From Novosphingobium sp. 28-62-57 (GTDB lineage Bacteria; Pseudomonadota; Alphaproteobacteria; Sphingomonadales; Sphingomonadaceae), in NCBI GenBank assembly GCA_002256985.1, contig NCGO01000001.1, positions 558,001 to 622,000 on the forward strand: a stretch of 64,000 nt of DNA, given 5' to 3'. Made by a program: the position numbers and the translations under genes. Below, one piece after another: positions 2,929 through 58,018 of the stretch. The notes below the pieces were generated by a model. It ran no database searches. It was not told where the DNA came from and worked only from the letters and a program-made list of their open reading frames with translations. Every line of letters begins with the position of its first letter. Position 1 is the stretch's first letter.

Positions 2929-2991
2929 TCGCTTATACGCTATGCGTGCAGAGCGGACCACATGGCCCGCCCTGCTTATCTGCCGCTCCCG

Positions 2992-3453: not shown

Positions 3454-3459
3454 GGCAAT

Positions 3460-3510: not shown

Positions 3511-3616
3511 CACCTGCTTTGGCGGTTTTGTGACCATGCCCGACTTGCGGCGCATGACACGCAAACCCATGTGTGTTAGCGAAAACCGCTTTTCAAGACC
3601 CTAATTTGAGGTACCC

Positions 3617-19832: not shown

Positions 19833-21416
19833 TTGGCAGTCTTGGCGCTCACCCAACAAGCAGATGAGAGAGGGATCGTTCTGACCACTGACACGCCGCA
19901 ACAGGCGCACGAGGCGCAGGCAGTGGTCATTCCCGAAGCGCCGGAGCAGGAACCGCACTCGCGTTCGGTCTGGCGATATGCGCGGGCAAGCAGAGCGCAT
20001 GCGGTGATCGACGCTGCGGACTACTTCGAATTGATGCGCGAGGCGATGATGCGCGCCCGCCAGCGGATATTCCTGATCGGGTGGGATTTCGACACGCGGA
20101 TACTGGTCGGTGGAGGCAGGCGTTGGTGGAACCTGCCGCGCAAACAGGTGTCACCAGCGCGCCTTGGCCCGTTTGTGGTATGGCTCGCCAATCGGCGCCA
20201 GCAGCTCGACATTCGCGTGCTCAAATGGAACTTCGGGGCTTTCAAGGCCGTGTTCCGCGGAGTGATGATGCTCGATCTGCTGCGCTGGTGGCGGCATCCA
20301 CGCATCGTGTTCAAGCTCGATAGCGCGCATCCGCTGGGATGCAGCCACCATCAAAAGATTGCCGTGATCGATGATCGTTTCGCCGTGTGTGGCGGCATCG
20401 ATATGGCCAGCGACCGCTGGGACACGCGCGAACATCTGGACGATGACCCGCGTCGCAAGCGCCCGGGCAGCAGCAAACATTTTGGCCCCTGGCACGATTG
20501 CACGATGCTGCTGGAGGGCGAGGCGGCCAGAGTGCTTGGCGAATTCGGCCGCAAGCGATGGGAGCAGGCCGGAGGCAAGCCCTTTGAGGCCTGTCGTCCG
20601 CAGCAGACATCGCCATGGCCTGCGCGGGTCGAAGCCGAATTCCGCGATGTGGAAATCGGCATTGCCAGAACCCGCTCCCATTTCCGCGAAGAGCGTGAAG
20701 TGCGCGAGATCGAAGCCCTGTTTGAAGAACAGATCGCGCGGGCGAAGCACTTCATCTATTTCGAGAACCAGTATTTCTCCTCACGCCGGGTAGCCGAGGC
20801 TATTGCCGCGCGCATGGCGGAACCTGATCCTCCGGAAGTTGTGCTGATCAACCCGCAAAGCTCGGACGGGTGGCTGGAACAAGCCGCGATGGACGGCGCG
20901 CGGATCCGGCTCGTGCAATCCATTGCCCAGGTCGATCATCGGCAGCGGTTCAGTGTGTGGCATCCCCTGACGGCCGGTGGCCGCCCGATCTATGTGCATT
21001 CGAAACTCACGATCGTGGATGATGAAATATTGCGGATCGGTTCGGCCAATCTCAACAATCGGTCGATGGGGCTGGATAGCGAATGCGATGTCTTCATTGA
21101 CTGCGCGCGTCCCGGCAACGGACATTGCAAGGCGGCGATCAAACGGTTGCGCATCTCGTTGCTGGCAGAGCATTGCGGTATTCATGACGAACAGGTAGCG
21201 ACGCTGCTGGAACAGCATGGCTCGATGGCGGCAATGATTGCGGCGGCTCCGCAGGACGGAAAAAGGCTCACGCCGTTCGTCCCGCATGAATTGACCGAGG
21301 CCGAGCAGGCGCTGGCCGATAATGAAGTGCTCGATCCAGAGCGGCCGGAAGAGATGTTGTCCTTCTACCGCAAGGGGTTGTTCAGAAGCCGGTTCTTGCG
21401 AAGACCGGTGCATTGA
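19833..21416 (+). CDS. Phospholipase D / cardiolipin-synthase-like protein
   Basis: A phosphatidyltransferase-type enzyme of up to 527 residues. It has two HKD motifs: HHQKIAVID (His173, Lys175, Asp180) followed by GGID, and HSKLTIVDD followed by GSANLNNRS, so the active site is complete. There are no clear membrane helices, which makes it more like soluble bacterial PLDs than cardiolipin synthase A, although EREVREIEALFEEQI-type linker sequence is shared with eukaryote-like PLDs. The start is uncertain: no ATG precedes the catalytic region; the best option is the TTG at 19833 and the first 45 residues look disordered. folE starts 11 bases after the stop, so they may be cotranscribed. Confidence 0.85.
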   Translation: MAVLALTQQADERGIVLTTDTPQQAHEAQAVVIPEAPEQEPHSRSVWRYARASRAHAVIDAADYFELMREAMMRARQRIFLIGWDFDTRILVGGGRRWWNLPRKQVSPARLGPFVVWLANRRQQLDIRVLKWNFGAFKAVFRGVMMLDLLRWWRHPRIVFKLDSAHPLGCSHHQKIAVIDDRFAVCGGIDMASDRWDTREHLDDDPRRKRPGSSKHFGPWHDCTMLLEGEAARVLGEFGRKRWEQAGGKPFEACRPQQTSPWPARVEAEFRDVEIGIARTRSHFREEREVREIEALFEEQIARAKHFIYFENQYFSSRRVAEAIAARMAEPDPPEVVLINPQSSDGWLEQAAMDGARIRLVQSIAQVDHRQRFSVWHPLTAGGRPIYVHSKLTIVDDEILRIGSANLNNRSMGLDSECDVFIDCARPGNGHCKAAIKRLRISLLAEHCGIHDEQVATLLEQHGSMAAMIAAAPQDGKRLTPFVPHELTEAEQALADNEVLDPERPEEMLSFYRKGLFRSRFLRRPVH

Positions 21417-21427
21417 GGGATTGAAGG

Positions 21428-22042
21428 ATGACGATTTTGCCAGGCCCTGCCGACGATGACGATCTGGCGCGCGGCAAGCTTCCGGTGCCGCAAGACGTGC
21501 AGGACGCAATTCGCACGCTGTTGCTGTGGGCCGGTGATGATCCTACGCGCGAAGGTCTGCTCGATACGCCCAAGCGGGTGGCGCGGGCGTGGAAGGAATA
21601 TTGCCAGGGCTATGATGAGGACCCGGCGGTGCATCTTGCTCGGCAGTTTGAAGAAGTCGGCGGTTACGATGAAATCGTGCTGCTGAAGGATATTCCGTTC
21701 CAGAGCCATTGCGAACACCACATGGCTCCGATCATCGGAAAGGCTGCGATCGCCTATCTGCCGCGTGACAAGGTCGTCGGCATCTCAAAGTTGGCGCGCG
21801 TTCTGCACGGGTTTGCCCGGCGATTGCAGATTCAGGAACGGCTGACCGCCGAAGTGGCGCAGTGCATCTGGGACAATCTCAAACCCCATGGCGTGGCCGT
21901 GGTGATCGAAGCCAGCCATGCCTGCATGACCGCACGCGGTGTGCGCACGCCGGGTGTCGGCATGGTCACCAGCAGACTGATCGGGACATTTCTGGAAGAC
22001 GAAAGCAGCCGCAAGGAAGTGCTGAGCCTGATGGGATACTGA
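21428..22042 (+). CDS. folE: GTP cyclohydrolase I
   Basis: Converts GTP to 7,8-dihydroneopterin triphosphate, the first step of tetrahydrofolate (and pterin) synthesis. It is 204 residues, usual for the family. The zinc ligands are visible as Cys95 and His98 in HCEHHMAPIIGKA and Cys166 in SHACMTARGV, so it is the zinc-dependent FolE1. QSHCEHH and KLARVLHGFARRLQIQERLT are canonical. The start ATG has GGATTGAAGG just upstream. The gene closely follows the phospholipase D gene; no folate genes are adjacent. Confidence 0.97.
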   Translation: MTILPGPADDDDLARGKLPVPQDVQDAIRTLLLWAGDDPTREGLLDTPKRVARAWKEYCQGYDEDPAVHLARQFEEVGGYDEIVLLKDIPFQSHCEHHMAPIIGKAAIAYLPRDKVVGISKLARVLHGFARRLQIQERLTAEVAQCIWDNLKPHGVAVVIEASHACMTARGVRTPGVGMVTSRLIGTFLEDESSRKEVLSLMGY

Positions 22043-42748: not shown

Positions 42749-44533
42749 ATGCAATTGGGGTACGAACGCAAGTTGATGGTGCGGCCTTTGCAGGCCTGTC
42801 CAGCGGTGCTTTTGCGCGGGCTGACGGGCCTTGCTTTGTCTGCCGCTCCGGTTGCGTCGTTTGCGCAGGCGGTTGGTCTTCCCGGCGGCGGCACCCCGAC
42901 GCGTGATGATATTCGAGGGCTTACCGGACAGCCTGCGGCCGTTGCGCCACAGCTTTCGATCAAAGGCGGTATCGAACGGTCCGCCTGCGCGCTGGATGAT
43001 CCCAAATACGCCGATATCAAGGTTACCATCGGCAATGTGACTTTCGGCGGCCTGAAGGAAATAGCGCCCACCGAACTCGACGATACGTGGAAGGCGCTGG
43101 TAGGCACGCCGCAGCCGATCAGCATCTTGTGCGAAATCCGCGATGCTGCAGGCACCATGCTGCGCAACAAGGGCTATCTCGCTGCCGTACAGGTGCCGAC
43201 GCAAAAGATCGAAGGCGGCGAAGTGCGCATGGAGGTGATCTATGCGCGGATCACATCGGTGCGCGCACGCGGGGAAACACGCGGTGCCGAACGCAAGCTG
43301 CAGCAGTATCTTGGCGCGCTGACGGGCGATGAAGTGTTCAACCAGCGCCGGGCCGAACGCTATTTGCTGCTGGCGCGTGATCTGCCCGGCTACAACGTGC
43401 AGTTGACGCTGAAGCCTGCTGGCACCGGGGCGGGCGAACTGATTGCCGAAGTCGCCGTGCTGCGCCAACCTTATGCGCTGGACTTCACGGTGCAGAATCT
43501 GGGCGCGCAAGCTACGGGGCGGTTTGGTGGGCAAGTGCGGGCGCAGCTTTTCGGCCTGACGGGGCTGGGGGATGCGACCTCGCTAGCCTTTTACGCCACC
43601 AGCGATGTGCGGGAGCAGCAGGTCTTGCAGGCCTCGCACGAATTCCGGCCCGGCGCGGAAGGCCTGATTATCGGCGGCCAGTTCACTTATGCCTGGACGA
43701 AGCCTGATATCGCCGGACTGCCTGCCAACGTGTCGCTGGATGCGCGCACGCTCTATGCCAGCCTGTTTGCCAAATACCCGCTCCAGCGGTCGCTTTCGCG
43801 CAATGTCTGGCTCAGTGGCGGGCTGGATCTGGTCAATCAGGACGTTGATTTCATTGGCCCATTGACGCGGGACCGCATTCGCGTGGCGTGGGGCCGGGTT
43901 GATCTGGACGCCATCGATACACGCCACGTGCAGCCGCGCTGGCGGGTTTCCACTGGTTTGGAAGTGCGACAGGGGCTGTCGATCCTTGATGCGACACAAG
44001 GCTGCGCCGGTCTTGCCTGTGGTGCGATTGTGCCGACAAGCCGCTTTGATGGTTCAGCCAGTGCCACAGTGGTGCGCTGGCAGGGTGAATTTGAGCAGGC
44101 CTTTGGCAAGGTCTCGCTGTTGCTGGCACCGCGCGGGCAATATGCCTTCAAGCCCCTGTTCAGCTTTGAGGAGTTTTCCGCCGGGAACTTCACGCTCGGG
44201 CGCGGATACGATCCGGGTGATCTGATCGGCGATAATGCGATTGGCAGCGCGGCGGAACTGCGCGGACCGCGCTTTGCCGTGGACCGCAATCGCAGCTGGC
44301 GCGTGCAGCCCTTTGCTTATGTCGATGCCGCGTGGGTGTGGAACAAGGGCATAGCGGGATCGCAACGGCTGACATCGGCGGGCGGTGGTTTGCGTTCGGA
44401 AATCGGATCGCGCTTTGTGCTTGAGGCAACGCTTGCCGTGCCTCTGGAGCGGTTGAGCGGACAGGCGAGCCGTTCCAAGCCGCGCTTTCTGATGACTTTG
44501 ACCACGCGGCTGCTGCCGTGGAGGAGCTTGTAA
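42749..44533 (+). CDS. Two-partner secretion outer-membrane transporter (TpsB, ShlB/FhaC/HecB family)
   Basis: A 594-residue Omp85-superfamily transporter. Signal peptide in the first 41 residues (ending ASFAQA), then two POTRA domains (about 85-165 with VTFGGLKEIAPTELDDTW; about 166-235 with GDEVFNQRRAERYLLLARDLPG) and a 16-strand-type barrel (about 240-594). The L6 loop motif of the superfamily appears as TLGRGYDPGDLIGD. This type exports one large partner protein, and the next gene, starting on its stop codon (TAATG), encodes exactly such a protein. It is the first gene of a three-gene operon. The start ATG has GAAGGGGCG upstream; a second ATG follows ten codons later. Confidence 0.88.
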   Translation: MQLGYERKLMVRPLQACPAVLLRGLTGLALSAAPVASFAQAVGLPGGGTPTRDDIRGLTGQPAAVAPQLSIKGGIERSACALDDPKYADIKVTIGNVTFGGLKEIAPTELDDTWKALVGTPQPISILCEIRDAAGTMLRNKGYLAAVQVPTQKIEGGEVRMEVIYARITSVRARGETRGAERKLQQYLGALTGDEVFNQRRAERYLLLARDLPGYNVQLTLKPAGTGAGELIAEVAVLRQPYALDFTVQNLGAQATGRFGGQVRAQLFGLTGLGDATSLAFYATSDVREQQVLQASHEFRPGAEGLIIGGQFTYAWTKPDIAGLPANVSLDARTLYASLFAKYPLQRSLSRNVWLSGGLDLVNQDVDFIGPLTRDRIRVAWGRVDLDAIDTRHVQPRWRVSTGLEVRQGLSILDATQGCAGLACGAIVPTSRFDGSASATVVRWQGEFEQAFGKVSLLLAPRGQYAFKPLFSFEEFSAGNFTLGRGYDPGDLIGDNAIGSAAELRGPRFAVDRNRSWRVQPFAYVDAAWVWNKGIAGSQRLTSAGGGLRSEIGSRFVLEATLAVPLERLSGQASRSKPRFLMTLTTRLLPWRSL

Positions 44534-47500
44534 TGCGCGCAACATCCTCTGCAACCATGAAGCAACTGCTTTCGGCATCGGGGCTGGCGCTGGCAACCGC
44601 ACTGGTGGCATCAGGGCCATCGCTGAAGGCGCAATCGTTCAATGCGTCCAGCAATGTCGTTGGCGGGTCTGCCACGATCTTCACCACACCGACCACCACG
44701 GCGATCACCGTGTCATCGCCCAGCGCGGTGATCAATTGGACGCCCAACGATACAGCGGCCACCGGCGGTCCGATAAACTTCCAGTCGGCCGGCACGACGG
44801 CCACATTCCAGAACGATTTCAACACGCAGAACTTCGCGGTCCTGAACCGGATCATTCCTTCGGGATCGACGCGGCCGGTGCAGTTCAATGGCGAGGTAAT
44901 CTCGCAGTTGCAGCAGTTCTCGGCCCCGCCAACGCGCGGCGGCACGGTGTTTTTCTATAGCCCGGGCGGCATCCTGATTGGCGGTGGAAGCGTGTTTGAT
45001 GTCGGCAATCTGGTGCTGACCACGTCGGATCTGTCATTCGATGCTGAAGGAAACTTTGACAGCAACGGGTCTTATGTTTTCCGGCCGGTTGATGTGCCGG
45101 GATCGCAAATCGTGGTCAATGCGGGCGCTCAGCTGAACGCCCCTGTTGAAGGGTCTTACATCGCGCTGGTCGCGCCCTCGGTGGTCAACAACGGGACGAT
45201 TGCCGTCAACGGTTCAGCTGCACTGGTGGCCGCCGATGCGGCAACGATCACGTTCTCACCCAACGGGCTGTTCGATATCGAAGTGACATCGGGCACGAGT
45301 GCGACTGGTGCCGTACTGACCAACAACGGTTCGGTCGAAGGGCCTGCATCAGGAGGGCAGAACTTCTTCAACCGGGTCTATATGGTCGCGGTGCCAAAGA
45401 ATGACGCGATCACGATGGCGATCGGGGCGGGCAGCGCACTGGGCTTTGATATTGCAGGTGCTGCCAATGCCGTGGGCAACACGATCATTCTGTCGGCCGG
45501 GCACGATGTGGTCGGCGGGGAGGCAGGCATCACCCCGTCAACCGGGGGCGGAAGTGGCCTTGTCTCGATCACAGGCGGTGACAGTGTGTTCTCGTCGGCG
45601 GTTGATGCGCGCGCGACGGGCACGATCAGTCTTGAAGCGACCCAGCCAGACGGCATGACCTTTGCCGGCCAGGCGCTGCTGCGGGCCACGGGAGGCAATT
45701 CCAGCATCACGGCAGGCGCGGGTAGCTTTGTCAATTTTGACAGCTTTCTCCTGTTTTCCGCCTCCACGGCAGGCACATCGGCCAATCCCAATGCGCAGGC
45801 TGGTGGCGTGGCGCTGCGTGCGCTCGATGGCGGGGCGATTACTGCTGCAGGATCGGTCGATCTGACCGCCAGCGGTGTTGGCGCTGCATCTTCGGTTGTG
45901 GGCACCAACAGCGGCAATGGGACCGGCGGGACAATTCTGGTCGAGGCGCTGAACGGCGGCACGATTGCGTTTGAGGTTGATCTGGTCGCCATTGCCGACG
46001 GGATCGGGGGCTTCCCGGAAACCGGCTTGAATGGCGTTGGCGGCGGAAACGGCACGGGTGGTACAGTCACGTTTCGGTCCGCCGGAACAGGCCTTTCGGA
46101 CATTCAGATTGCCGCAGGAATCAATATCACGGCAACGGGGATCGGCGGCACGGGCAATGGCTGCACCACGTGCCAATTCGATGGCGGGACGGCGATTGGC
46201 GGGATCATCGGATTTGAATCCAACGGCACCGGCAAGACGATTGATATCCGGGGGCTTACCGATCTTTCGGCGCTGGCAAACGGTGGCATCGCATCGGTAG
46301 GTAGCGGCGGGTCAGCCACCGGCGGGACCATCTCGGCTGTTGCCACAAACGGCGGCCGGATCACGCTGCGGGCCTTCAACGCTGCGACCAACGCGCAGGG
46401 CGGATCAACCTTTGGAACGTTCGGCGGCACAGCAACCGGCGGCGTCGTAAACTTTGCAGCCAGCGGGACCGGCATTGGCGGCATTGGCGTTACCGGCGAT
46501 CTTTTCCTTGAGGCAAATGCCACAGGCGGCATTGGGCAGTCACAGACCAGCTCTGGCGGCACGGCCACAGGTGGGGCCATCACGGTCAGCGCGCGTGATG
46601 AAAAGTTCGTCAGCGTCACCGGCAACCTGTTTGCCAACAGCAACGCCAACGGTGGTCTGGGGTTTAATGCTCCGGCCGCAGGCACGGGCGGCTTGGTCAC
46701 GGTTGAGGCGACCACGGCGGGGTTGATGAGTGTTACCGGCCTTGCCGGCCTTTCAGCCCAAGGCACTGGCGGCGAATCGCTCGGCGCGCAGAGCGGCGGG
46801 GTTGGCACCGGCGGCATTGCTACGCTGCGATCGGCCGGGGGGCAGGTTACCATCAGCAACGATCTGTCGGTCAATGCTGAGGGCCGTGGCGGCGCGCAGG
46901 TTACCAATGGGATCGCCGGTGCAGGACAAGGCGGCACGGCCCAGATCGTGATCGGCTCCAGCGGCCGGATCGATCTGCTTCAAGACGCAGACGTCCTTGC
47001 CGAGGGCCGCGGCGGCGCGTCAGGCAGCGGACCCGATACCATCGGTGGCAATGGGACCGGCGGTAACGCACGGCTCAATCTTGGGGGCGGTACGCTCGAC
47101 ATTACCGGCAAGCTTACCCTTGGTTCAGCCGGATCGGGCGGCGGAGGGGGGGCGCAAGGCGGCAATGGCCTTGGCGGCACAACGTCGATCACGCAGACCG
47201 GCAACACGCTGATCGTTGGCGCGGACAGTTCCATTGGCGCGACAGGGACCGGCGGTCCGGCCTTCTTCGGGTCGACCGGCGGGAGCGGCACCGGCGGGAC
47301 CATCACCATGCAGGCCACCCAAAGCACCGCCAGCTTTTCCGCGCTTGGCGATGCCACCTTGGATGCCACCGGTTTCGGTGCGATTGGCACGGTTACCGGC
47401 GCGGGAACGGGCGGCACCATCCAGATCACGGCGACCGCATCCACCATAGGCGCAGGCAATGCCTTGCAGATCCTTGCCGAAGGGCAAGGCGGCGATGGCG

Positions 47501-50500
47501 GCTTCAATGGCGGCAATGGGGCTCTTGGAACAGGCGGACAGATCAGCCTCACGGCCAGTGGCAGCGTTCTGGGCGCAAGCCGGATTGAAGCACCAACTTT
47601 GAACATCAGCGCCACCGGCCGCGGCGGTGACGGCACTGGCCAGGCTAATGCCGCAGCCGGTCCGATCAGCCAGGCAGGCAGCGGCGGCAACGGTCTGGGC
47701 GGCACCATCGCGCTGGTTTCCGCGCCCGATGGCGGCACGATCGCAGCGCAACAGTTGACTGCAGCAGCAGCGGGCGCAGGCGGCCTTGGTGCCAACGGTG
47801 CATCGGCATCAGGGCCCGGCGGCGATGCCGGCTCTGGCGGATCGGCTGTGGGCGGCCAGATCACCTTTGGCTCGGTGCGCGGCAACGGCACCGCCTTGGG
47901 CGGTTTTGAGCTGGGTGCTGGCCTTGTCGATGCCGGGGCCATTGGCGCGAACGGCGGAACCGGGGGCGCGGGCTTCCCGCCAGGGCGCGGCGGCAGCGGG
48001 GGCAACGCGACCGGCGGCACCATTACCATGGAGTTTGATGCAGGCGGTAGCCGGTTAGCGGTTGCAGGTGGGCTGCAAGTGCTGGCCAACGCCACCGGTG
48101 GCAATACCGGCCCATGCTTTACCGCGTGCGTTGTTGCAGCGGGCGTGGGGACGGGCGGCACGATCAAAGTGGGGTCCGATGGCCTGACCAGCGGCAACAC
48201 GATATCTGCCCAATCGCTTGAGCTTTCCGCTTTCGGGGTGGGCGGGAACAGCAGCACGGCCAGCGGCGCACAAGGCATCGGCGGCAATGTGCAACTGTTG
48301 CTGGGATCGGGCATGGCGCTGACGGTCGGCGATGTTTCGCTCAACGCGCTTGCCGAAGGTGGCGATTCCTCGACCGACGAGGTGGCCGATCTGGTGGGCG
48401 GCGCGGCGCTTGGGGGAAGTGCGCAATTTGTCGCTTCGGGTACAAGCAGTGCCAACATTTCCGGGCAAGTTGGAATCACAGCCAGAGGCTCTGGCGGTTT
48501 CAGCGCCGGTCCGGGCGGCATTGGCGGGAACGGCACCGGGGGCACGGCGCGACTGTTCAGCGCTGGCGGCGCAATCTCCATCGAAGGTGGCGTCGGTCTT
48601 GATGCCAATGGCACGGGCGGCGATGGCCAGCTTGATGGCGCAACTGGGGTCGGCGGCAGCGGACAGGGCGGCAGTGCCCTGTTGGGTGCTGGCAACCAGA
48701 CCCTGTTGGGCAATGGCGGCAGCATTTCCGTCCTCGGCCTTGTCAACGCCAGCGCAGATGCTGGCGCGGGGATCGGCCAAGTTGCGGGCAGCGCAGTGGG
48801 CGGACAGACATCGCTGACCGCACGGCAGGGAACGGTTCAGCTTAGCACTGTGGTGGCATCGGCCAACGCCTTCGGTGCCAATGGCGCCAGTGGCGGAGCA
48901 GGCGGCGCAGCCACCGCCGGCACAATTTCGATCGTTGCGCACAACGCGGTTGAAGGACCGGCCCTGTTGCAAGCAACTGAGGTCATCACCCGGGCAACCG
49001 CGCGAGGGGGCAATGGGGCAGAGTTTATTGATCCCAATGCACCGTTGGCCAATGGCGGCCTTGCCCAGGGCGGGAGCATTTCCATTCTGGGCAGCGCAGG
49101 CAATGGCCGGATCGATATCGATCAGGTCGATGCCTCTGCCGACGCTACGGGCGGCACGGGCGGGATTGCCTTGTCCGGTACGGCCGGGACCGGAGGCTTG
49201 GCCACCGGCGGCACGATACAGCTGGGTCTGACCAGTGGCATTCCGACCGGGACGGTCAACACCGGTTCGGCGCAGTTTGGCGCGGTGGAGGCCACGGCGT
49301 CCGGCTTCGGCGGCAGCGGCGGCCAAGGAGAGCAAACAGGCGGCAATGGGGGCAATGCCGTTGGCGGCGGGATTACGCTGCTGGCGCAGGGCGGACCTGT
49401 GTCTATCGCTGCGGCATCAACATTTGATGCAAATGCCAACGGCGGCACAGGTGGAGCCGGGCCGGTCACAGGCAACGGTGGAAACGCCACGATCAGTCCC
49501 CTGTCCGGCGCTGCATCGCTTTCGGGCGTGAAGATTCAGGTGAGCGAGCGGATCAATCAGCCCGCGCAACGTGGCGGTTTGACAGCATCTGACCTGACGC
49601 TGCGCGCCTTGGCCACGGGCGGGGCGGGCACGACCGGCGGCACATCCACCATGGCCAATAGCGCGCTCGGGTTTGTCGTTACCAACGGTGATGTTTCCGC
49701 CAACAGTCTGGTGATGAGCGCGGCGGCAAATGCCGTTAACCCCACAGCCTTGGCCGACACGTTTACGATGTCTAACAGTTCGGCAGCTTTCGCAACTGAC
49801 CTGACCATTTCCACGCCGAACGCATTTTCGCTCACGCTCGACAATGCCAATGCTACGGCGGACAGCGTGTCGATGTCGGCCAGAAACTGGCTGCTGGCAG
49901 GCCCCGCACCCGCGACCTTGGGCACACTGACCGGGCGCGCCGTGTTGCAGCTCCTGTCTACCCAAGACCTTGTCGGGCATGCCAATCTTGCGTCGGATAC
50001 GCCGATCAATCTGGCATCAGTCGGGCGGATTTCGTTCGGTGCGGTCAGCGCGCCGGGCTTCATCACGGCAGATGCCGGAACATCGCTGACATTGGGCAAT
50101 GTCACGTCGCAACAGGACGTTACGCTGACAGCCAATACCAACCTCGTCGTCGGCACGGTGTCGGCCCTTGGACCGGTATTGATCGATGCTGGGGGGAACG
50201 TCACGACCGGTTCGGTCACCGCAGGCACTGGACTGCCGTCGGCTGCCGGAACCAGTCCATTGACCATCAGTGCCGGGGGCAGGATCAGCACGGCCAATCT
50301 GTCCTCGTCGTCTGATGTCCTGCTCTATGCGCAAGGCGACATTGGCACGGGGCGCATTTCGGCCTTTGATGCCTTGATCCTTGGCACTGGCAACACCGCG
50401 CTGGGTGGCTTTGACCGTGCCAACCGGGTGCTGATCGCCAACCGGGCGATGGCGTTTCCCGCATCGGGCGGCACACCGACGAAAGAGCAAATCCTCAGCG

Positions 50501-52404
50501 CAAATCCGATTGCAACCACAGGGTCAGTCAGCTTCGAGGGTCCCTCCACCCTTGGCACCTTGCGGATTGCTGCGGGCACGACCGCGGCAACCAGCGATGT
50601 TCTGGCCAGCGGCAACATTGGCATGACCAGCGCCGGCAACGGCACTTTCGGCGCGCTGCGCAGCACCGGCGGCAACATCGAACTGCTTTCGCAAACGGGC
50701 AGTCTGGCGGCAGCGGGGATCGATGCGCGGTTTGATGTGCTGGCGCGCGCTGCAACCGGCCTGAACTTGCAGACGGTCTCAGGTCGGGACATTGCCCTGC
50801 TTTCGGCAGGCAATGTGCAAGTCGGCAGCGCAAGGGCCGGGGTTGTAATCAGTCCTGCCAGCGGAGCAATCACCGGAGCTACGGGGCGCTTGCTGATCGC
50901 GAACGCCTCGATGCTACCAGCAGGGGCACTGCCCGGTTCAATTGATTATGCTGCGCTGTTTGCTGCAGCGCCTGTCTCCACTGCGGGGTCGGTCAACCTC
51001 GGGCGCACGATTGCCGGACGTATGACGGGTGCTGCTGCGGGTATTCTGCGCGGTGACGAGTGGACCGCGTTTGAGCGGATTGATGCCACATCCGCCACGC
51101 AAGTGACCGTGGCGCAACGCTGGACAGCGCCGGTGGTGCGGATCAGCGCCGGAAACATCGCCGTGATCAACAACAGCTCAGGCGGTGGAGCCGCTGGGCA
51201 GCCATTGCTTTCGGGCATTCGCACAGCGGTTGACGGCAGCGTAGACCTTGTATCGACGTCAGGGGGCACCGTGCTGATCGGCGATGGCCTGACCGCGCAA
51301 GACGATTTTTCGCTGACCGACGAGGAAATTGGCCTGATTTCCACCGGTCGGCTGACCATCGCCGCCGCTGATTCTGCGGCCAATGCCATCGACATGCGGA
51401 TTGGCAATCTGAACCTGACCGCCGGAGGAACCATCGGCGCAACCATGCTTGCCGGACCAAACGGACGGATCATCTTTGCCACAGGCAACGCCGCAACGCA
51501 GGCGTTGGGCGGCACAATCCGCGTAACCGGAGCCATCAACGGCACCGGTTTTGGATCGGGCAATGTCGTGGAATTCAGCACGGGCACGTTTGAACTCGAT
51601 GCCGCAACCGGATCGATCAGCCTGACGTCCACCGGCACAACGCTGGGCGGCATTGCCGAATTCAACGCTGCCAACATTCACATCGCTTCGGCCGACATTC
51701 TGGACAGGTTAGCCGCCGATCCGCTCTACAGCGATCGCATTGCTGATCTAAATGCTCCGGCGATTGTGCAGCGACCCGAAGGTGTGCTGCGCGCGCTTGG
51801 GCTGGATTTCTATCCCACCGGCACGCTCTATATCCAGAACACCGGCACCGTGCTGAACCCTGCCGGTTTCTTCTCGGATATCGCCTTCACCGATGTCACG
51901 GCTCCGGCCAATGCGCAGCCCGGAGCGATTTCGGTCATCGTGAATGGCGCGTTCCAGACACCGTCCGGGATCGTCAGCGGCTTCGATGCGCATGAACTGG
52001 CGGTGGCGGGCGTAACCGATCCGGCCAGTTTCTCCGACGACAGCCAGATCAATGGCTGCCTCTTTTCGGTAACGCGTTGCGTCATCCTGCCAGGTGGCGA
52101 TGGAGAGCCCGACGTGATCGGCGCAATCTCGGGGCAAATCACCTTCAACGCCACCGAGCCACTCGGCAGCACGCCTGAATTCGGCAGTCCCGATGGTGAA
52201 GAGGATGAAGCCGACGTGCAGCTCCCACCTGATGAATCAGGCACGGCCGGACCCATCGTTCCGCCCACCAGCATCATCAACGCTGCACCACTCGATGCGG
52301 CAAGCCCGATTGAAGAACCGGTATCAGGCGGAGGCAATCCTGCGCTGATTGGCTCTAGCTCTGGCAGCGGCGGCAATGGAAATCTGCAGGGAGACGTCCA
52401 GTGA
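44533..52404 (+). CDS. Large TpsA-type exoprotein with filamentous-haemagglutinin N-terminus
   Basis: A 2,623-residue secreted or surface protein. Signal peptide (about 1-33, ending SLKAQ), then a TPS secretion domain (about 35-260) with VLNRIIPSG and YSPGGILIGGGSVFDVGNLV, a variant of the NPNGIxxG..xNVGxLV motif. From about 450 to 1655 the chain is a glycine/threonine-rich array of ATGTGG and GNGTGGT-like turns, then a less repetitive beta-helix-like region to about 2,500. It ends in an acidic, proline-containing tail without LPXTG or autotransporter barrel. Only a few cysteines are present, as usual for TpsA. It is translationally coupled on both sides (TAATG; GTGA). Adhesion, biofilm or contact-dependent roles are possible; none can be chosen. 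Confidence 0.85.
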   Translation: MRATSSATMKQLLSASGLALATALVASGPSLKAQSFNASSNVVGGSATIFTTPTTTAITVSSPSAVINWTPNDTAATGGPINFQSAGTTATFQNDFNTQNFAVLNRIIPSGSTRPVQFNGEVISQLQQFSAPPTRGGTVFFYSPGGILIGGGSVFDVGNLVLTTSDLSFDAEGNFDSNGSYVFRPVDVPGSQIVVNAGAQLNAPVEGSYIALVAPSVVNNGTIAVNGSAALVAADAATITFSPNGLFDIEVTSGTSATGAVLTNNGSVEGPASGGQNFFNRVYMVAVPKNDAITMAIGAGSALGFDIAGAANAVGNTIILSAGHDVVGGEAGITPSTGGGSGLVSITGGDSVFSSAVDARATGTISLEATQPDGMTFAGQALLRATGGNSSITAGAGSFVNFDSFLLFSASTAGTSANPNAQAGGVALRALDGGAITAAGSVDLTASGVGAASSVVGTNSGNGTGGTILVEALNGGTIAFEVDLVAIADGIGGFPETGLNGVGGGNGTGGTVTFRSAGTGLSDIQIAAGINITATGIGGTGNGCTTCQFDGGTAIGGIIGFESNGTGKTIDIRGLTDLSALANGGIASVGSGGSATGGTISAVATNGGRITLRAFNAATNAQGGSTFGTFGGTATGGVVNFAASGTGIGGIGVTGDLFLEANATGGIGQSQTSSGGTATGGAITVSARDEKFVSVTGNLFANSNANGGLGFNAPAAGTGGLVTVEATTAGLMSVTGLAGLSAQGTGGESLGAQSGGVGTGGIATLRSAGGQVTISNDLSVNAEGRGGAQVTNGIAGAGQGGTAQIVIGSSGRIDLLQDADVLAEGRGGASGSGPDTIGGNGTGGNARLNLGGGTLDITGKLTLGSAGSGGGGGAQGGNGLGGTTSITQTGNTLIVGADSSIGATGTGGPAFFGSTGGSGTGGTITMQATQSTASFSALGDATLDATGFGAIGTVTGAGTGGTIQITATASTIGAGNALQILAEGQGGDGGFNGGNGALGTGGQISLTASGSVLGASRIEAPTLNISATGRGGDGTGQANAAAGPISQAGSGGNGLGGTIALVSAPDGGTIAAQQLTAAAAGAGGLGANGASASGPGGDAGSGGSAVGGQITFGSVRGNGTALGGFELGAGLVDAGAIGANGGTGGAGFPPGRGGSGGNATGGTITMEFDAGGSRLAVAGGLQVLANATGGNTGPCFTACVVAAGVGTGGTIKVGSDGLTSGNTISAQSLELSAFGVGGNSSTASGAQGIGGNVQLLLGSGMALTVGDVSLNALAEGGDSSTDEVADLVGGAALGGSAQFVASGTSSANISGQVGITARGSGGFSAGPGGIGGNGTGGTARLFSAGGAISIEGGVGLDANGTGGDGQLDGATGVGGSGQGGSALLGAGNQTLLGNGGSISVLGLVNASADAGAGIGQVAGSAVGGQTSLTARQGTVQLSTVVASANAFGANGASGGAGGAATAGTISIVAHNAVEGPALLQATEVITRATARGGNGAEFIDPNAPLANGGLAQGGSISILGSAGNGRIDIDQVDASADATGGTGGIALSGTAGTGGLATGGTIQLGLTSGIPTGTVNTGSAQFGAVEATASGFGGSGGQGEQTGGNGGNAVGGGITLLAQGGPVSIAAASTFDANANGGTGGAGPVTGNGGNATISPLSGAASLSGVKIQVSERINQPAQRGGLTASDLTLRALATGGAGTTGGTSTMANSALGFVVTNGDVSANSLVMSAAANAVNPTALADTFTMSNSSAAFATDLTISTPNAFSLTLDNANATADSVSMSARNWLLAGPAPATLGTLTGRAVLQLLSTQDLVGHANLASDTPINLASVGRISFGAVSAPGFITADAGTSLTLGNVTSQQDVTLTANTNLVVGTVSALGPVLIDAGGNVTTGSVTAGTGLPSAAGTSPLTISAGGRISTANLSSSSDVLLYAQGDIGTGRISAFDALILGTGNTALGGFDRANRVLIANRAMAFPASGGTPTKEQILSANPIATTGSVSFEGPSTLGTLRIAAGTTAATSDVLASGNIGMTSAGNGTFGALRSTGGNIELLSQTGSLAAAGIDARFDVLARAATGLNLQTVSGRDIALLSAGNVQVGSARAGVVISPASGAITGATGRLLIANASMLPAGALPGSIDYAALFAAAPVSTAGSVNLGRTIAGRMTGAAAGILRGDEWTAFERIDATSATQVTVAQRWTAPVVRISAGNIAVINNSSGGGAAGQPLLSGIRTAVDGSVDLVSTSGGTVLIGDGLTAQDDFSLTDEEIGLISTGRLTIAAADSAANAIDMRIGNLNLTAGGTIGATMLAGPNGRIIFATGNAATQALGGTIRVTGAINGTGFGSGNVVEFSTGTFELDAATGSISLTSTGTTLGGIAEFNAANIHIASADILDRLAADPLYSDRIADLNAPAIVQRPEGVLRALGLDFYPTGTLYIQNTGTVLNPAGFFSDIAFTDVTAPANAQPGAISVIVNGAFQTPSGIVSGFDAHELAVAGVTDPASFSDDSQINGCLFSVTRCVILPGGDGEPDVIGAISGQITFNATEPLGSTPEFGSPDGEEDEADVQLPPDESGTAGPIVPPTSIINAAPLDAASPIEEPVSGGGNPALIGSSSGSGGNGNLQGDVQ
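45890..49500 (+). repeat. Glycine-rich repeat array inside the TpsA gene
   Basis: About 3.6 kb of imperfect repeats, each usually 40-50 codons, built round the DNA pattern GGCACNGGCGGNACC (Gly-Thr-Gly-Gly-Thr) and variants such as GGCGGCAATGGC. Many short stretches recur almost exactly, so slippage and unequal recombination are likely. The pattern also creates long open frames on the opposite strand, which I do not regard as genes. Confidence 0.85.
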
Positions 52405-55400
52405 CCGCGCGCCGTTCGATCCATCGCGCTGGGCTGCGCTCTGGCGTGGCTCTGGCATTGGCAGTGCTAGCCAGCGCTTCCGGCGTTAAGGCCGCAACCG
52501 ATGCACAGCCGCCGCTGTCGATCCGCAATTCGTTCCGCATCGGCACTTCTGGCGTTACCTGCACCGCACAAAACGCACCGGCGGACGCGCGCCTTGGCGG
52601 CATGTTCGATCGTGGATACCGCCTGAGCTGCCGCGATGCCGCAGGGGCTGTCGGCACGCTGATTGCCGTGCGCCGCGCCATTCCTTTGCAGGATGAGCCG
52701 ACCGGCCTTTCGGGCGTGACGCTGTCTTGCGGGGCCACGGGATCGGTCATGATCGACGGGGTTGGACGCGTGAGCGCGGCCAACTGCCGCGATCAACGCG
52801 CCCAGGTGGAATACAAACGCTATGCCGTCAGCCGCAATGGCGTAAGCTACCTGGTTGAAGGGCTGGCAGGCTATGACCCAGCGCTGCGCCTCGCGCTTGC
52901 CAGTGTTTTCACAGATTCCCGCGTGCCGGGCGAGATCAAGGTCGCAACGACCGAAGTCACCGATCCAGCCGCCTTTGCGCGGGTGCAAGCCGGGCAACTC
53001 GACAGGCTGGGCGCGCGCGGTGAAGGCTATGCCCGCAACAACAGCGGCCGCTTTGCCGAATCTGCCGAGTTTTTTGAGGCGCTGGCAAGCCGGGATCGGG
53101 CCGCGGGCGGCGCAGCATTGGCCGAGGCTTTGGCCAATCAGGGTTTGCAGCAATCCAACCTCGGCAATTTCGAGGCATCGAGCGGCTTGTTTGGCCGGGC
53201 CTCTGCCGCGATTGCCCGCGCTGATGGTGTGACGCAGCGCTTGTTGCGCAATTACCGCGCGATCGACCAGTTGAACCAGCGCCAGCCTGCCGCAGCGCTT
53301 GCCGAGCTTGCCAAGCCCGTCAACGCTATCGGCGATAGCTTTGATTTCGAAAGCCTGTCTGCCGGGTTCATCACCCGCCCATTGTCGGAACAGATCAACC
53401 GCGAAAGTTCGGGGCTCAAACGTCTTGGAGCCGTCGATCCGGGACTGACCGATCTTGAGCGCGCCGAAATACTCGATGCGCAAGCCGTAGCCTTGGCCGC
53501 CACGGCAGCACGCATGCAAGGCAGGTTGGACCAAGCCCTCAGCGGGCTGCAAAGCGCCAGCGCCAGATTGGCCAACGTGCGCGAGGGCAGGGTCATCTCC
53601 ATGGCCTGGCTGCGTTCGGAGATAGAGCTTGAACTGGCCACCGTGGCCGAGGCGCAGGGCCGCAAGGGCGAAGCAGTCGCTGCTTATGACCGTGCGCTCA
53701 CTGTGCTGGAAAGCGCGCTGCCGCAAACGCCTGCCTTGCTGGCGGCGCGGGCGCGCAAGGCCGGGTGGCTTGGCCGGTCTGGCGATGAAGCAGGCGCCAT
53801 CGCCTTGTTCGCCGACGTTATTGCAGGCACGCTGGAGGTGCCCGAGGCCGGAGCGAACTTGCGCAATCTGGTGCAACCCTACTTCGGCCTGCTGGCACAG
53901 CGGAACGAAAGCAGCGCGGCCAGTGCCGTATTTGCAGCATCGCAGGTTTTGCAGCGGCCCGGCGTCGCGCAGACACAAGCCGTGCTGGCCCGGCAGATGT
54001 CCGAAGGCAATGATGATGCCTCGGCCTTGTTCCGGCTGTCCTTGGCGCGCACGCGTGACATTGCCCGGACCGAAGCGACGATTGCACAACTGTCGTTGAT
54101 CGCCGCGCCCACCGATCAGCAACAGACCGCCCTCAAATCGGCGCAAGATGATCTGGCCTATTTACAGCGCGAACAGACCGAACTGGTCAGCAAGCTCGCA
54201 GCATTTCCGCGCTACAGCGTGCTGGCCCCGAAAAACGTCGCGATGGCCGAACTGCAATCCGCGCTGAAACCGGGCGAGAGCTATTACAAGCTGATGGTCG
54301 TGGGCGACTACACCTATGGGCTTTACATCACACCGCAGACGGCCAGAGTCGTGCCAATCTCAGCCACGCCTACCCAATTGTCGGCTGAAGTGCAGGCCCT
54401 GCGCGATACGATCGTGAAGGTCGAAAATGGCCGTCAGGTAAACTATCCCTTCGATGCCGAACGTGCGCATCGCCTTTACAAAACGGTGTTCGGTTCGGTC
54501 GAGGACTTGCTGTCAGGCACCCGCCACCTGATTTTTGAACCTGATGGCGCAATGCTGCAACTGCCGCCCACGGTTCTGATCACCGATGACAAGGGCATCG
54601 CCGCCTATAACGAACGCATGGAAAGCCCCGATGGCGATGCCTTCGATTTTACCGGCATGGCATGGCTCGGGCGCGGGCGTGAGGTTTCCATCGCGGTCAG
54701 CCCGCGCGGCTTTCTGGATATCCGCAAGCTGGGCGCTTCGGTCGCTCCGCGCAATTATCTGGGCCTTGGACACAATGCCAAACCAGCTCCGCGTCCCGTC
54801 ACAGCCGTTGCCGACGAATGCGATTGGCCACTGGCAACGTGGATGAACCCGATCTCGGCGGACGAATTGCTCTATGCGCAGAAAAAGCTCGATAGCGGCG
54901 GCAGCAAAGTACAGATCGACACGGCATTCAGCGACAGCGCGCTGCTGGCCGATCAGGACCTCGACAAGTACCGCGTACTGCATTTCGCCACCCACGGCCT
55001 CGTCACCGCCCCACGCGCCGGATGCCCGGCCCGGCCCGCGCTCGTCACCAGCTTCGGCAATTCAGGTTCCGACGGTCTGCTGAGTTTTCGCGAAATCTTC
55101 GACCTGAAGCTCGATGCCGATCTTGTCATTCTTTCAGCCTGCGACACGGCCGGCATGGCCTCAGTTGCAGCAAGCCGCGAAGCCGGCGTCACCAGCGGCG
55201 GCAACTATGCCCTCGACGGCCTCGTCCGCGCGTTTGTGGGGGCCGGAGCGCGTTCGGTCATCGCTAGCCACTGGCCCGTGCCCGATGATTTCGACGCGAC
55301 CAAACGCCTGATCAGCGGCGTGATCGAAGCTGGCCCCGGACAGCCGCTGGGCGAGGGTCTGGAAGCTGCACAGCAAAAACTGATGGACGATCCCAACACA

Positions 55401-55484
55401 TCGCACCCGTTCTATTGGGCCGCGTTCGTGATCGTGGGCGATGGTGCCAAGCCGCTGCTGGCCAAAGACGGAAAGGCAATGTGA
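52401..55484 (+). CDS. Exported TPR/CHAT-domain protein (caspase-like peptidase fold)
   Basis: A 1,027-residue protein. The GTG start overlaps the TpsA stop (GTGA). A signal peptide (RSGVALALAVLASASGVKA) directs it out of the cytoplasm. Residues about 40-180 form an unknown domain with paired cysteines (SGVTCTAQN, RLSCRD, TLSCGA), about 190-600 are TPR-like helical repeats, and about 640-1027 is a CHAT domain. The caspase-type dyad is intact: His865 in LHFATHGLV and Cys914 in VILSACDTAGM. CHAT proteases cleave specific partner proteins, so the linked exoprotein or transporter is the natural candidate substrate. The exported location is unusual for this fold, which is better known from cytoplasmic defence and signalling. 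Activity is inferred. Confidence 0.85.
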   Translation: MTARRSIHRAGLRSGVALALAVLASASGVKAATDAQPPLSIRNSFRIGTSGVTCTAQNAPADARLGGMFDRGYRLSCRDAAGAVGTLIAVRRAIPLQDEPTGLSGVTLSCGATGSVMIDGVGRVSAANCRDQRAQVEYKRYAVSRNGVSYLVEGLAGYDPALRLALASVFTDSRVPGEIKVATTEVTDPAAFARVQAGQLDRLGARGEGYARNNSGRFAESAEFFEALASRDRAAGGAALAEALANQGLQQSNLGNFEASSGLFGRASAAIARADGVTQRLLRNYRAIDQLNQRQPAAALAELAKPVNAIGDSFDFESLSAGFITRPLSEQINRESSGLKRLGAVDPGLTDLERAEILDAQAVALAATAARMQGRLDQALSGLQSASARLANVREGRVISMAWLRSEIELELATVAEAQGRKGEAVAAYDRALTVLESALPQTPALLAARARKAGWLGRSGDEAGAIALFADVIAGTLEVPEAGANLRNLVQPYFGLLAQRNESSAASAVFAASQVLQRPGVAQTQAVLARQMSEGNDDASALFRLSLARTRDIARTEATIAQLSLIAAPTDQQQTALKSAQDDLAYLQREQTELVSKLAAFPRYSVLAPKNVAMAELQSALKPGESYYKLMVVGDYTYGLYITPQTARVVPISATPTQLSAEVQALRDTIVKVENGRQVNYPFDAERAHRLYKTVFGSVEDLLSGTRHLIFEPDGAMLQLPPTVLITDDKGIAAYNERMESPDGDAFDFTGMAWLGRGREVSIAVSPRGFLDIRKLGASVAPRNYLGLGHNAKPAPRPVTAVADECDWPLATWMNPISADELLYAQKKLDSGGSKVQIDTAFSDSALLADQDLDKYRVLHFATHGLVTAPRAGCPARPALVTSFGNSGSDGLLSFREIFDLKLDADLVILSACDTAGMASVAASREAGVTSGGNYALDGLVRAFVGAGARSVIASHWPVPDDFDATKRLISGVIEAGPGQPLGEGLEAAQQKLMDDPNTSHPFYWAAFVIVGDGAKPLLAKDGKAM

Positions 55485-55794: not shown

Positions 55795-56574
55795 TCAGAC
55801 CATGAACTGTTCGGCAAAGATACGGTCTTCAAGGCTTTGGCCGCGGTCGAACAGCAGGGTCAGGCGGTGTTCGGGCCAGGCTTTGACTCGCACTTCACGC
55901 ACATCGCGCACTTCCTTCTGGTCGGCCACGACGAGCACCGGGCGCTTTACCGATTCCAGCGCCTTGAACACGATCTCATAGGTATCCGGCAGAATCGCGC
56001 CACGCCACCTGCGCGGGCGGAAGGGGCTGATCGGGGTGAGCGCCAGCATGTTGGACGACAGCGGCAGGATCGGGCCATTGGCCGACAGGTTATAGGCGGT
56101 CGAGCCTGCAGGCGTTGCCACCAGCACACCATCGCAGGCGAGTTCTGGCATGCGCACCTTGCCGTTTACGCTGACTTCAAGCTTTGCAGTTTGACGCGTT
56201 TCGCGCAGGATCGACACTTCGTTGATGGCGCAGACCGAATGCTCCTCCCCTGTGTTGGTGGTGGCAATCATACGCAATGGCGAAATGCCAACCGACGTGG
56301 CCTTTGCCAGACGTTCCTTGATGCTGCGGCTTGATCTGTACCGGTTCATGAGAAATCCGACTGTGCCCAGATTCAGCCCGAAGGCCGGGATCACATGATC
56401 GGTATCGAGCATCGCGTGCAGCGTTTGCAGCATGAAGCCATCCCCGCCGATGACCACCGCCGCATCTGCCTCCTCCAGCGGAACCCACGTCCGCTCTTTC
56501 TGCAAGGCTTCGCATGCTTCCTGCGCCCGCTCGGTAGGCGAGGCGAGCAGGGCCAGACGGCTGTACTCCGGCAT
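55795..56574 (-). CDS. nadK: NAD kinase
   Basis: Phosphorylates NAD to NADP with ATP; cytosolic and usually essential. It is 259 residues. The signature GGDG (residues 43-46, Asp45 catalytic) lies in AVVIGGDGFMLQTLH. The NE motif in CAINEVSILRE and the glycine-rich VATPAGSTAYNLSANGP follow. I use the ATG at 56574 (MPEYSRLALLAS); the longer frame to 56649 adds an unlikely proline-rich head. It is divergent from the EAL gene. Confidence 0.96.
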   Translation of the reverse strand: MPEYSRLALLASPTERAQEACEALQKERTWVPLEEADAAVVIGGDGFMLQTLHAMLDTDHVIPAFGLNLGTVGFLMNRYRSSRSIKERLAKATSVGISPLRMIATTNTGEEHSVCAINEVSILRETRQTAKLEVSVNGKVRMPELACDGVLVATPAGSTAYNLSANGPILPLSSNMLALTPISPFRPRRWRGAILPDTYEIVFKALESVKRPVLVVADQKEVRDVREVRVKAWPEHRLTLLFDRGQSLEDRIFAEQFMV

Positions 56575-56743
56575 TGTTATTGCGCCTCTCCGCGAAGGGT
56601 CATTCAAAGTTGCTGGGGCAGGGATATGGGGTGCAGGGCATTGGCGCAATGCACAAAAGCATGATCATGCGTGTCGCGGTCCCGCGGGGTTAGACAGGCA
56701 AAGGGAATTGTTTGGCAAGAGTTTAGCGCTATGGCCGGTGCTG

Positions 56744-58018
56744 ATGGGAGACTCCGCCACCATTTATGCACGTGATCCGCTGACAGGGCTGGCCAGTTCT
56801 GCCGAGGCGCGGGAGTGGCTGCAGCGCGCGCCTGCGCCCGATTACCTGCAAGCCATGCTGGTCGGCCTGCACCGCTTCCGCTCGGTCAACATTGCCTATG
56901 GCAACGCCGGGGGCGATCTCGCACTGGCCGAAATAGCGCGGCGCATTCGCGATTTTGCAGTGGAGGAACTTGGGCCATCAGCCATCGTCGCGCGCATCAG
57001 CGGCGGCGAATTTCTGGTGGCCTGTACGGGCGCCATGCCGCGCGAACGCTGGCAATGGCTGGCCGAAGCGCTGGGGCGCACCGTCGGGCGCGCGCTGCCG
57101 GTTCACGGCGATGTTCTGCACCTGCTGCCGCGCATTGCCCTGCTGCGCCGCGCTCCGGGTGAGAGCGCGGGCCGGATGCTGGACCGGCTCGATCAGGCGC
57201 TGGGAAGCCTTGAACAGCTGCCCGGACGCCGCGTAATGTGGGCCGATGGTTCGCACCGCGCGCGCGGACGCAGCGCGGCGCGGCTTGAGGCAGACCTGAT
57301 CGGCGCGATGGCGCGGGACGAGATCGGGCTGGTGTTTCAGCCGCAGTATTGCGTGAACTCAGGCGCGCTCGCTGGTGCCGAAGTGCTGGCCCGCTGGAAC
57401 CACCCGCAGCTTGGCCGCATCGGTGCCGAAACGCTGTTTGCGATTGCCGAACGCGGCGATCACATCGAACAGCTCTCCAGCCACATCATCCAGCGCGCGC
57501 TAGCCTCCGATGAGCGATGGAAAGGGCATTTGCCTTTATCAATCAACATTACTGCGGAAGACCTTGCAGCCGAAGACTTTGCAGCCGGGTTTGCACAAGC
57601 GCTCGATCACAGTGGATTTCCACCTGCGCAGTTGACGCTGGAAGTGACCGAACAAAGCCTGATCGCCGACTTTGTGCGCTCTGCCAGCTCGCTCAAAACC
57701 ATTGCCGCACTCGGTGTGCGCATCGCGCTGGATGATTTCGGCACCGGCTATGCCAATTTCCGCACGTTGAAGGCGCTGCCCATCGACACACTCAAACTCG
57801 ATGCCTCGCTGGTCGGCGATGTCGATACAGACCCGCGCGACCGGGCGATATTGAAAGCCATCGTCGCCATGGCCAAGGCGCTAGGCCAGAAGATCGTGGT
57901 CGAAGGCATTGAGCGTGAAGGGCAATTGGCCGTACTGGCGCAAGAGGGCTGCGACGTGTTTCAGGGCTTCTTGCGCTCCGGCCCGGTATCCGGCGAGGCA
58001 ATTGCGGCGATGCTTTAG
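56744..58018 (+). CDS. EAL-domain c-di-GMP phosphodiesterase with degenerate GGDEF domain
   Basis: A 424-residue cytosolic protein. The N-terminal half (about 10-165) is a GGDEF fold whose active loop reads SGGEF (86-90) instead of GGDEF, so it should not make c-di-GMP, though it might bind nucleotide. The C-terminal EAL domain (about 180-420) keeps the catalytic residues: EVLAR (213-217), Asn269 in SINIT, Glu300, Asp330-Asp331 in DDFGTGY, Lys351, Glu388 and Gln407. Hydrolysis of c-di-GMP is therefore likely. The chosen ATG is the first in frame outside nadK; a ribosome site is weak. No transmembrane or PAS domain is seen. Confidence 0.9.
   Translation: MGDSATIYARDPLTGLASSAEAREWLQRAPAPDYLQAMLVGLHRFRSVNIAYGNAGGDLALAEIARRIRDFAVEELGPSAIVARISGGEFLVACTGAMPRERWQWLAEALGRTVGRALPVHGDVLHLLPRIALLRRAPGESAGRMLDRLDQALGSLEQLPGRRVMWADGSHRARGRSAARLEADLIGAMARDEIGLVFQPQYCVNSGALAGAEVLARWNHPQLGRIGAETLFAIAERGDHIEQLSSHIIQRALASDERWKGHLPLSINITAEDLAAEDFAAGFAQALDHSGFPPAQLTLEVTEQSLIADFVRSASSLKTIAALGVRIALDDFGTGYANFRTLKALPIDTLKLDASLVGDVDTDPRDRAILKAIVAMAKALGQKIVVEGIEREGQLAVLAQEGCDVFQGFLRSGPVSGEAIAAML

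Follow-up and report, generated by a model that had tools for sequence, protein, structure and literature searches.

We analysed a window of 64,000 nucleotides from Novosphingobium sp. 28-62-57 (contig NCGO01000001.1, positions 558,001 to 622,000; "the window" means this whole stretch). Three genes at 42,749 to 55,484 form a two-partner secretion (TPS) operon with a third partner. They encode the outer-membrane transporter TpsB, a giant exoprotein TpsA and a predicted exported TPR-CHAT cysteine protease. An initial annotation of this DNA had described a 2,623-residue TpsA and genes joined by TAATG and GTGA, and both junctions were confirmed by direct reading of the sequence. The features of the cassette, in window positions, are as follows.

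42749..44533, + strand: TpsB outer-membrane transporter, 594 amino acids, with POTRA_2 at residues 93-164 and the ShlB barrel at 240-549 (Pfam)
44531..44535, + strand: TAATG stop/start overlap of TpsB and TpsA (direct sequence reading)
44533..52404, + strand: TpsA exoprotein, 2,623 amino acids from ATG, with a divergent TPS domain near the N-terminus and a repeat-rich body
51130..52089, + strand: TpsA residues 2200-2519, C-terminal part of the predicted beta-helix (modelled as ordered by AlphaFold)
52042..52080, + strand: TpsA cysteine loop, residues 2504-2516, S-Q-I-N-G-C-x6-C, with Cys2509 and Cys2516 (alignment)
52090..52401, + strand: TpsA residues 2520-2623, acidic tail (predicted disordered)
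52315..52353, + strand: conserved motif of the TpsA tail, residues 2595-2607, E-P-V-S-G-G-G-N-P-A-L-I-G (alignment)
52401..52404, + strand: GTGA start/stop overlap of TpsA and CHAT (direct sequence reading)
52401..55484, + strand: predicted exported TPR-CHAT cysteine protease, 1,027 amino acids from GTG (Pfam, structure model)
52521..52865, + strand: N-terminal beta domain of the CHAT protein, residues ~41-155, with Cys54, Cys77, Cys110 and Cys129
52965..54200, + strand: helical TPR-like region of the CHAT protein, residues ~189-600 (model)
54462..55442, + strand: CHAT domain, residues 688-1014, with Cys807 and Cys875, both conserved in CHAT proteins of TPS loci
54993..54995, + strand: codon of the predicted catalytic His865
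55140..55142, + strand: codon of the predicted catalytic Cys914

The first protein scored 53.3 bits for ShlB (cut-off 22.7) and 32.6 bits for POTRA_2 (cut-off 24) in Pfam, and thereby has the POTRA domain and ShlB/FhaC barrel required for type Vb secretion. The third protein matched the CHAT domain (PF12770) with 199.5 bits (cut-off 24) and carries the His/Cys dyad, which together place it in the CHAT family. Signal-peptide-like N-termini were recognised by eye on the TpsB, TpsA and CHAT proteins; for the CHAT protein this agrees with the export proposed in the initial annotation. A whole-protein Pfam scan of TpsA gave no match at E 0.001, and NCBIfam returned 0 families for the CHAT, TpsB and TpsA proteins. 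In comparison with contact-dependent inhibition and polymorphic-toxin loci, no separate immunity-like gene lies between TpsA and CHAT, because the gene following TpsA is the overlapping CHAT gene itself. A promoter and terminator scan across the operon found fewer sites than the mean of shuffled sequences.

His865 and Cys914 occupied invariant alignment columns, and the dyad was present in 113 of 113 distinct CHAT proteins of TPS loci, so that the description of an intact dyad stood. Six extra cysteines (Cys54, Cys77, Cys110, Cys129, Cys807 and Cys875) were conserved among the CHAT proteins of TPS loci, and all six were missing from the three solo CHAT proteins of the source genome (G000). The structure model of the CHAT protein resembled Csx29, the TPR-CHAT protein of Craspase, and separase, with Csx29 closest, consistent with a TPR-CHAT/separase fold. 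To our knowledge, Csx29 and separase are cytoplasmic or nuclear proteins without a signal peptide, whereas the window protein has export signals, an N-terminal four-cysteine domain and a cysteine pair within the catalytic domain. A phmmer search against solved structures gave 0 matches each for the CHAT protein and TpsA. The closest relatives in the CHAT search came from Novosphingobium, with up to 79% identity in the best segment (locus L057); among the strains with an orthologous cassette, Novosphingobium subterraneum DSM 12447 (L032) reached 76% and N. taihuense (L014) 74%. Lipobox-like starts (LAGC, LTGC and similar) were seen on the CHAT proteins of L059, L061, L062, L069, L070, L080, L081, L088, L143, L153 and L169, where L069 and L153 are the same protein and L169 was judged by eye; from their sequence these are probably membrane-anchored versions. 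At L031 and L079 the CHAT gene was split over two open reading frames each, as a broken gene or an assembly error.

Profile searches of G000 yielded five CHAT genes, two ShlB genes and two TPS domains. A second, deeply diverged TpsB-TpsA-CHAT cassette was located on contig C19 (L010, 2067-14850), with a TGATG overlap at its TpsA/CHAT junction. The TpsB proteins of the two cassettes are 32% identical and the CHAT proteins 30%. The two TpsA proteins are scarcely alignable, yet both have an I-N-G-C-L...C stretch near the C-terminus. TPS genes were absent among the neighbours of the three solo CHAT genes (contigs C21, C4 and C35) in the fetched 19-20 kb.

The linkage of CHAT and TPS genes was followed in a draw of 119 genomes of the family. 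Second fragments of one gene were merged before the join (4 ShlB rows, 1 CHAT row and 2 TPS rows left out), giving 111 ShlB and 119 CHAT places. CHAT lay within 25 kb of ShlB at 52 of the 111 places, always on the same strand, with about 2 expected by rough arithmetic; we therefore concluded that the arrangement is not due to chance. At 20 of these places CHAT was downstream of TpsB, as in the window, and at 32 it was upstream. No ShlB was found within 25 kb of 67 of the 119 CHAT places, including three of the five in G000. Thus CHAT genes in general are not TPS genes, while this CHAT type is. When more than one gene of a locus was matched, the best matches always belonged to one set (TpsB1-TpsA1-CHAT1 or TpsB2-TpsA2-CHAT2); CHAT occurred alone in about 17 of the 80 loci of the homologue search, several of them on short contigs. 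The annotated frames allow a 4-nucleotide TpsA/CHAT overlap at 54 of 72 junctions, and at 4 others they allow an overlap of 1 nucleotide. Leaving out genomes that occur twice (L034/L144, L035/L149 and L069/L153), as in all distinct counts, the 4-nucleotide overlap was possible at 51 of 69 junctions, or at 51 of 66 when only TpsA-like upstream frames are counted. CHAT near ShlB was also found outside the family, in a phylum draw of 299 genomes, where the join covered a hand-picked part of the CHAT and ShlB matches listed and all counts are to be read as "at least".

Evolutionary distances of CHAT and TpsB were closely correlated, with r 0.961 over 79 loci and r 0.964 over 76 distinct loci, and in both sets 0 of 999 permutations reached a value as high. 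In genomes with two cassettes the cognate pairing fitted better than the swapped one in 7 of 7 cases, clearly in three and modestly in four. This swapped-partner control removes the effect of species descent from the pairing. The data support TpsB-TpsA-CHAT as a stable three-gene unit. The initial annotation had looked to conservation of the linked triplet; for this CHAT type linkage held over the 76 distinct loci, but it did not extend to the CHAT places away from ShlB, and the gene order varies. Its further step, from strict coupling to stoichiometric function, was dropped, as coupling does not imply stoichiometry.

A candidate for the substrate region emerged at the C-terminus of TpsA. Thirty-six of the 52 CHAT-linked loci were fetched and 32 had a readable TpsA C-terminus (L102, L104, L112 and L152 were unusable, and L110 was judged by eye). 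For CHAT-less loci the C-terminus was readable in 24 of 59; the others had no TPS match, contained a stop, or ran off the contig or the fetched stretch. The pattern scored, N-[GSND]-C and 5-8 residues later another Cys, had to fall within the final 300 residues. It was present in 28 of the 32 CHAT-linked TpsA proteins versus 1 of the 24 CHAT-less ones, which rules out the loop as a general TpsA feature. A wider collection held 78 distinct TpsA proteins with N-x-C-x(4-10)-C, of which 77, L169 and L170 of other families among them, were CHAT-linked and one came from L123. Among the 78, Ser stood at position -3 in 68 and Gly between N and C in 60, and the loop of 4-8 residues was followed by 60-234 further residues. 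The consensus of the CHAT-linked proteins, S-x-x-N-G-C-x(4-8)-C, ends the beta-helix ahead of the tail. In a 24-row alignment S305, N308, C310 and C317 of the aligned fragment (window TpsA residues 2504, 2507, 2509 and 2516) were invariant, and the tail motif recurred with the consensus E-P-V-x-G-S-G-N-P-A-L-x-G.

In the AlphaFold model of TpsA residues 2200-2623 the beta-helix, together with the loop, is ordered as far as about residue 2519 (10-residue means 94 and 75), with disorder beyond (10-residue means 34-52). The loop thus closes off the folded rod in the model, and the tail beyond it is disordered. A Foldseek search with this model gave no usable match (best E 0.69). The window TpsA has its last cysteine 108 residues from the C-terminus, so the protein lacks a pair at the extreme C-terminus as in the HMW1-type anchor. 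Many TpsA2-type relatives do have a second cysteine pair at the very end, in the place of that anchor. In the sections of PMC5422565 covered, the C-terminal cysteine pair of the TpsA proteins HMW1 and HxuA is linked to surface retention; the window pair differs: it sits 108-115 residues from the C-terminus, where the folded helix comes to its end, and a long tail follows.

The closest working precedent is CdrA/CdrB of Pseudomonas aeruginosa, in which a C-terminal cysteine hook keeps the TPS adhesin CdrA inside the barrel of its TpsB. The protease of that system, LapG, belongs to the C93 family; a C93 protease (PF06035) had 0 matches in G000 and was present in 24 of the 119 family genomes. According to the parts of PMC5422565, PMC7616799 and PMC11898600 covered, LapG is a periplasmic cysteine protease that cuts CdrA near its C-terminus and so releases it. 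LapG is encoded outside the TPS operon (PMC5422565), whereas here a gene for a caspase/separase-fold CHAT protein overlaps the TpsA gene. Another TPS exoprotein, FHA of Bordetella, is released by the protease SphB1 (PMC5422565), which in contrast to the window CHAT protein is a subtilisin autotransporter encoded outside the fha locus. Section 9 of the same review names no protease for the hmw and hxu operons. The review, from 2017, states that genes of maturation proteases appear not to sit in TPS operons, and the words 'CHAT' and 'caspase' occur 0 times in its main text. Here, by contrast, the protease gene is part of the operon, overlaps TpsA and co-evolves with TpsB. In the portion of the polymorphic-toxin survey PMC3482391 that was covered 'CHAT' appears 0 times, and Table 1 gives HINT as the processing protease for type V. 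Searches for an exported or TPS-linked CHAT protein turned up no TPS-linked one in the open-licence papers searched, subscription journals being mostly outside this scope. The same holds for the portions covered of PMC10907252, which names CHAT as a defence effector domain, and of PMC10811720, which reports CHAT and FHA-like genes as separate phage-resistance mutations. A two-partner secretion variant with a built-in caspase-fold protease is real, conserved and new to the open-licence literature covered, and its function we infer as set out below.

We propose that the locus is a three-partner type Vb cassette in which a periplasmic CHAT protease cuts the C-terminal end of its own TpsA and in this way controls retention or release, a reading to which we give a probability of about one half. 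TpsB would export the giant, beta-helical surface protein TpsA, the helix of which would be closed by the probable disulphide loop S-x-x-N-G-C-x(4-8)-C and followed by the tail. The exported separase/Csx29-like TPR-CHAT protein would remain periplasmic, as a soluble protein here and probably with a lipid anchor in some relatives. Its binding partner would be the tail at the C-terminus of the cognate TpsA, located inside the TpsB pore or close to it. A cut at or near the loop, or in the tail, would then decide between surface retention and release of the adhesin, and CHAT would fill the role that LapG has for CdrA. The initial annotation proposed that the CHAT protein acts in maturation, release or regulation of the exoprotein or in control of the pore; as a whole this interpretation is partly supported. 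If confirmed, this would be a CHAT protease at work outside the cytoplasm of environmental bacteria that can be cultured, with predictions for both its substrate and the region where it acts. Adhesin release would become testable by one point mutation, and the range of CHAT proteases, which takes in cytoplasmic defence and the control of heterocysts, would come to include the cell envelope.

A weak point in the identification of the operon is that the TPS domain of the window TpsA is divergent: the genome scan gave E 2.6e-7 and 31.5 bits, below the Pfam cut-off of 33.5 bits, versus 64 bits for the paralogue on C19. Several observations weigh against the proposal itself. The loop is absent from four CHAT-linked TpsA proteins (L103, L109, L110 and L111), and since the model places it where the folded helix ends, it could serve as a structural cap and not as a protease site. 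A regulator equivalent to LapD was not identified in the operon. Moreover, in a TpsB tree of 62 rows (L117 and the partial or second TpsB proteins of L016, L019, L077 and L178 left out) all 30 rows with both CHAT and loop fell into one clade (97/87). Much of the association between loop and CHAT is therefore explained by shared descent, and it is largely the inheritance of one TpsB clade. Since most cases share ancestry, the loop was ruled out as proof of functional coupling. Three members of the clade lack CHAT: L120 and L121, both from genome G053, and L123 from G072; the family genome search gave no CHAT match in G053 or G072. The TpsA proteins of L120 and L121 are without the N-G-C loop and have a different C-x10-C pair near the C-terminus. 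The TpsA of L123 has the loop though its genome has no CHAT match, and this loop may be the site of another protease or a leftover. A test of independent pairs within the clade gave 2 concordant, 0 discordant and 1 pair without difference, far too few for significance; the direction fits coupling of loop and CHAT while the number is too small.

Cleavage might also be more specific than proposed above. The CHAT protein would then be an envelope separase-like protease for one substrate, recognising the S-x-x-N-G-C-x(4-8)-C cap and cutting at or beside the invariant Asn or in the tail, with one version in which a CHAT-coupled CHASE2 cyclase signals the state of the adhesin through cAMP. Enzymes of clan CD usually recognise a P1 side chain, and PorU of type IX secretion is a caspase/gingipain-fold enzyme that processes the C-terminal signal of cargo secreted across the outer membrane. 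Such regulated C-terminal processing would be a conceptual counterpart of PorU or of glycosylphosphatidylinositol transamidase; we regard this extended form as improbable. The conserved overlap and the co-evolution with TpsB would also suit a periplasmic quality-control protease or chaperone, which removes TpsA that has stalled or misfolded, or holds it in an export-competent state, and has no role in maturation, and the long TPR-like region seems suited to holding an unfolded chain. Cognate pairing in 7 of 7 two-cassette genomes, together with the C-terminal signature, suggests a specific substrate instead, and we consider quality control a rather unlikely explanation. That CHAT acts on TpsB, opening or closing the pore, and not on TpsA, is suggested by the close tracking of TpsB distances by CHAT distances. 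It also agrees with several genomes from other families of the phylum: among the matches listed, about 2.4 kb separate CHAT and ShlB there, and the stretches read contain no loop motif. The C-terminal signature sits in TpsA, however, and Pfam shows nothing unusual about the POTRA_2 and ShlB domains of the window TpsB. As the target, the evidence favours the C-terminal end of TpsA over the TpsB pore, which leaves the pore a poor candidate.

In part of the loci the cassette includes a further gene, which bears on a signalling role. In 14 of the 21 CHAT-upstream loci fetched from the family draw, CHAT and TpsB were separated by a homologue of the CHASE2-adenylate cyclase of L096. This homologue was accompanied in 11 of the 21 by an exported protein of about 269 amino acids without a Pfam family, for which a guessed FecR-like identity was not confirmed by Pfam. 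The CHASE2-cyclase domains were confirmed by Pfam in L096 and L102, and the cyclase regions lie at 3186-6066 in L096, 3517-6284 in L102 and 13042-15099 in L044. Often no more than about 20 bases separated the CHAT stop from the cyclase start. The cyclase also followed CHAT in L044 (21 bases past CHAT) and L088, both with CHAT downstream of TpsA, and in L055. Because it usually begins right after the CHAT stop, the cyclase seems tied to CHAT and not to gene order. These loci favour surface-to-cytoplasm signalling, in which the state of TpsA would be read by CHAT and, where present, by the cyclase, with proteolysis as the signal. Against it, neither the cyclase nor the ~269-residue protein occurred in any of the 13 fetched CHAT-downstream loci of the family draw, which have the arrangement of the window. 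The window neighbours scanned had no CHASE2 domain, and the two CHASE2 genes of G000 lie elsewhere. We therefore hold signalling, too, to be improbable for this cassette. A role in defence or cell death, in which TpsA would sense contact, would be in keeping with cytoplasmic CHAT proteases and with the closeness of the modelled fold to Csx29. The window CHAT protein has an export signal and extra cysteines and gave no match in PADLOC, and no Cas7-11/gRAMP effector as in Craspase was found among the six scanned window genes, the rest of the genome not having been searched for Cas7-11. A defence role is thus very improbable.

The six window genes scanned with Pfam encode SecA, TpsB, TpsA, CHAT, an EAL/GGDEF protein and a TRCF-type helicase. 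The EAL and GGDEF protein (56432-58018) starts about 950 bp past the CHAT gene, and EAL homologues were seen 1.2-3.6 kb downstream of the cassette in seven Novosphingobium loci (L015, L016, L023, L024, L029, L032 and L057). An EAL gene near the cassette was seen only in Novosphingobium loci, and synteny within one genus is weak evidence. A c-di-GMP link through this neighbour would fit the LapG precedent.

Some loci had unusual gene structures. CHAT matches inside open frames of about 2,600-2,850 residues were seen in other families of the phylum draw (for example G229:C301, G186:C7 and G132:C25). Two such stretches, L179 and L180, were fetched and their open reading frames listed. A suspected TpsA-CHAT fusion in G149 (2,513-residue frame) was rejected, as frame reading gave separate genes and the long frame was an out-of-frame extension. 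A 1,455-residue open frame in L106 is a candidate CHAT-TpsB fusion, and L019 has a second TpsB-like gene (19852-21600) about 7 kb downstream of the cassette. At the CHAT-less TPS locus L125 a gene for a 596-residue protein (2841-4631, reverse orientation) lies between TpsB and TpsA; judged by eye only, its product looks like a lectin-type domain fused to a TolQ/ExbB-like membrane part.

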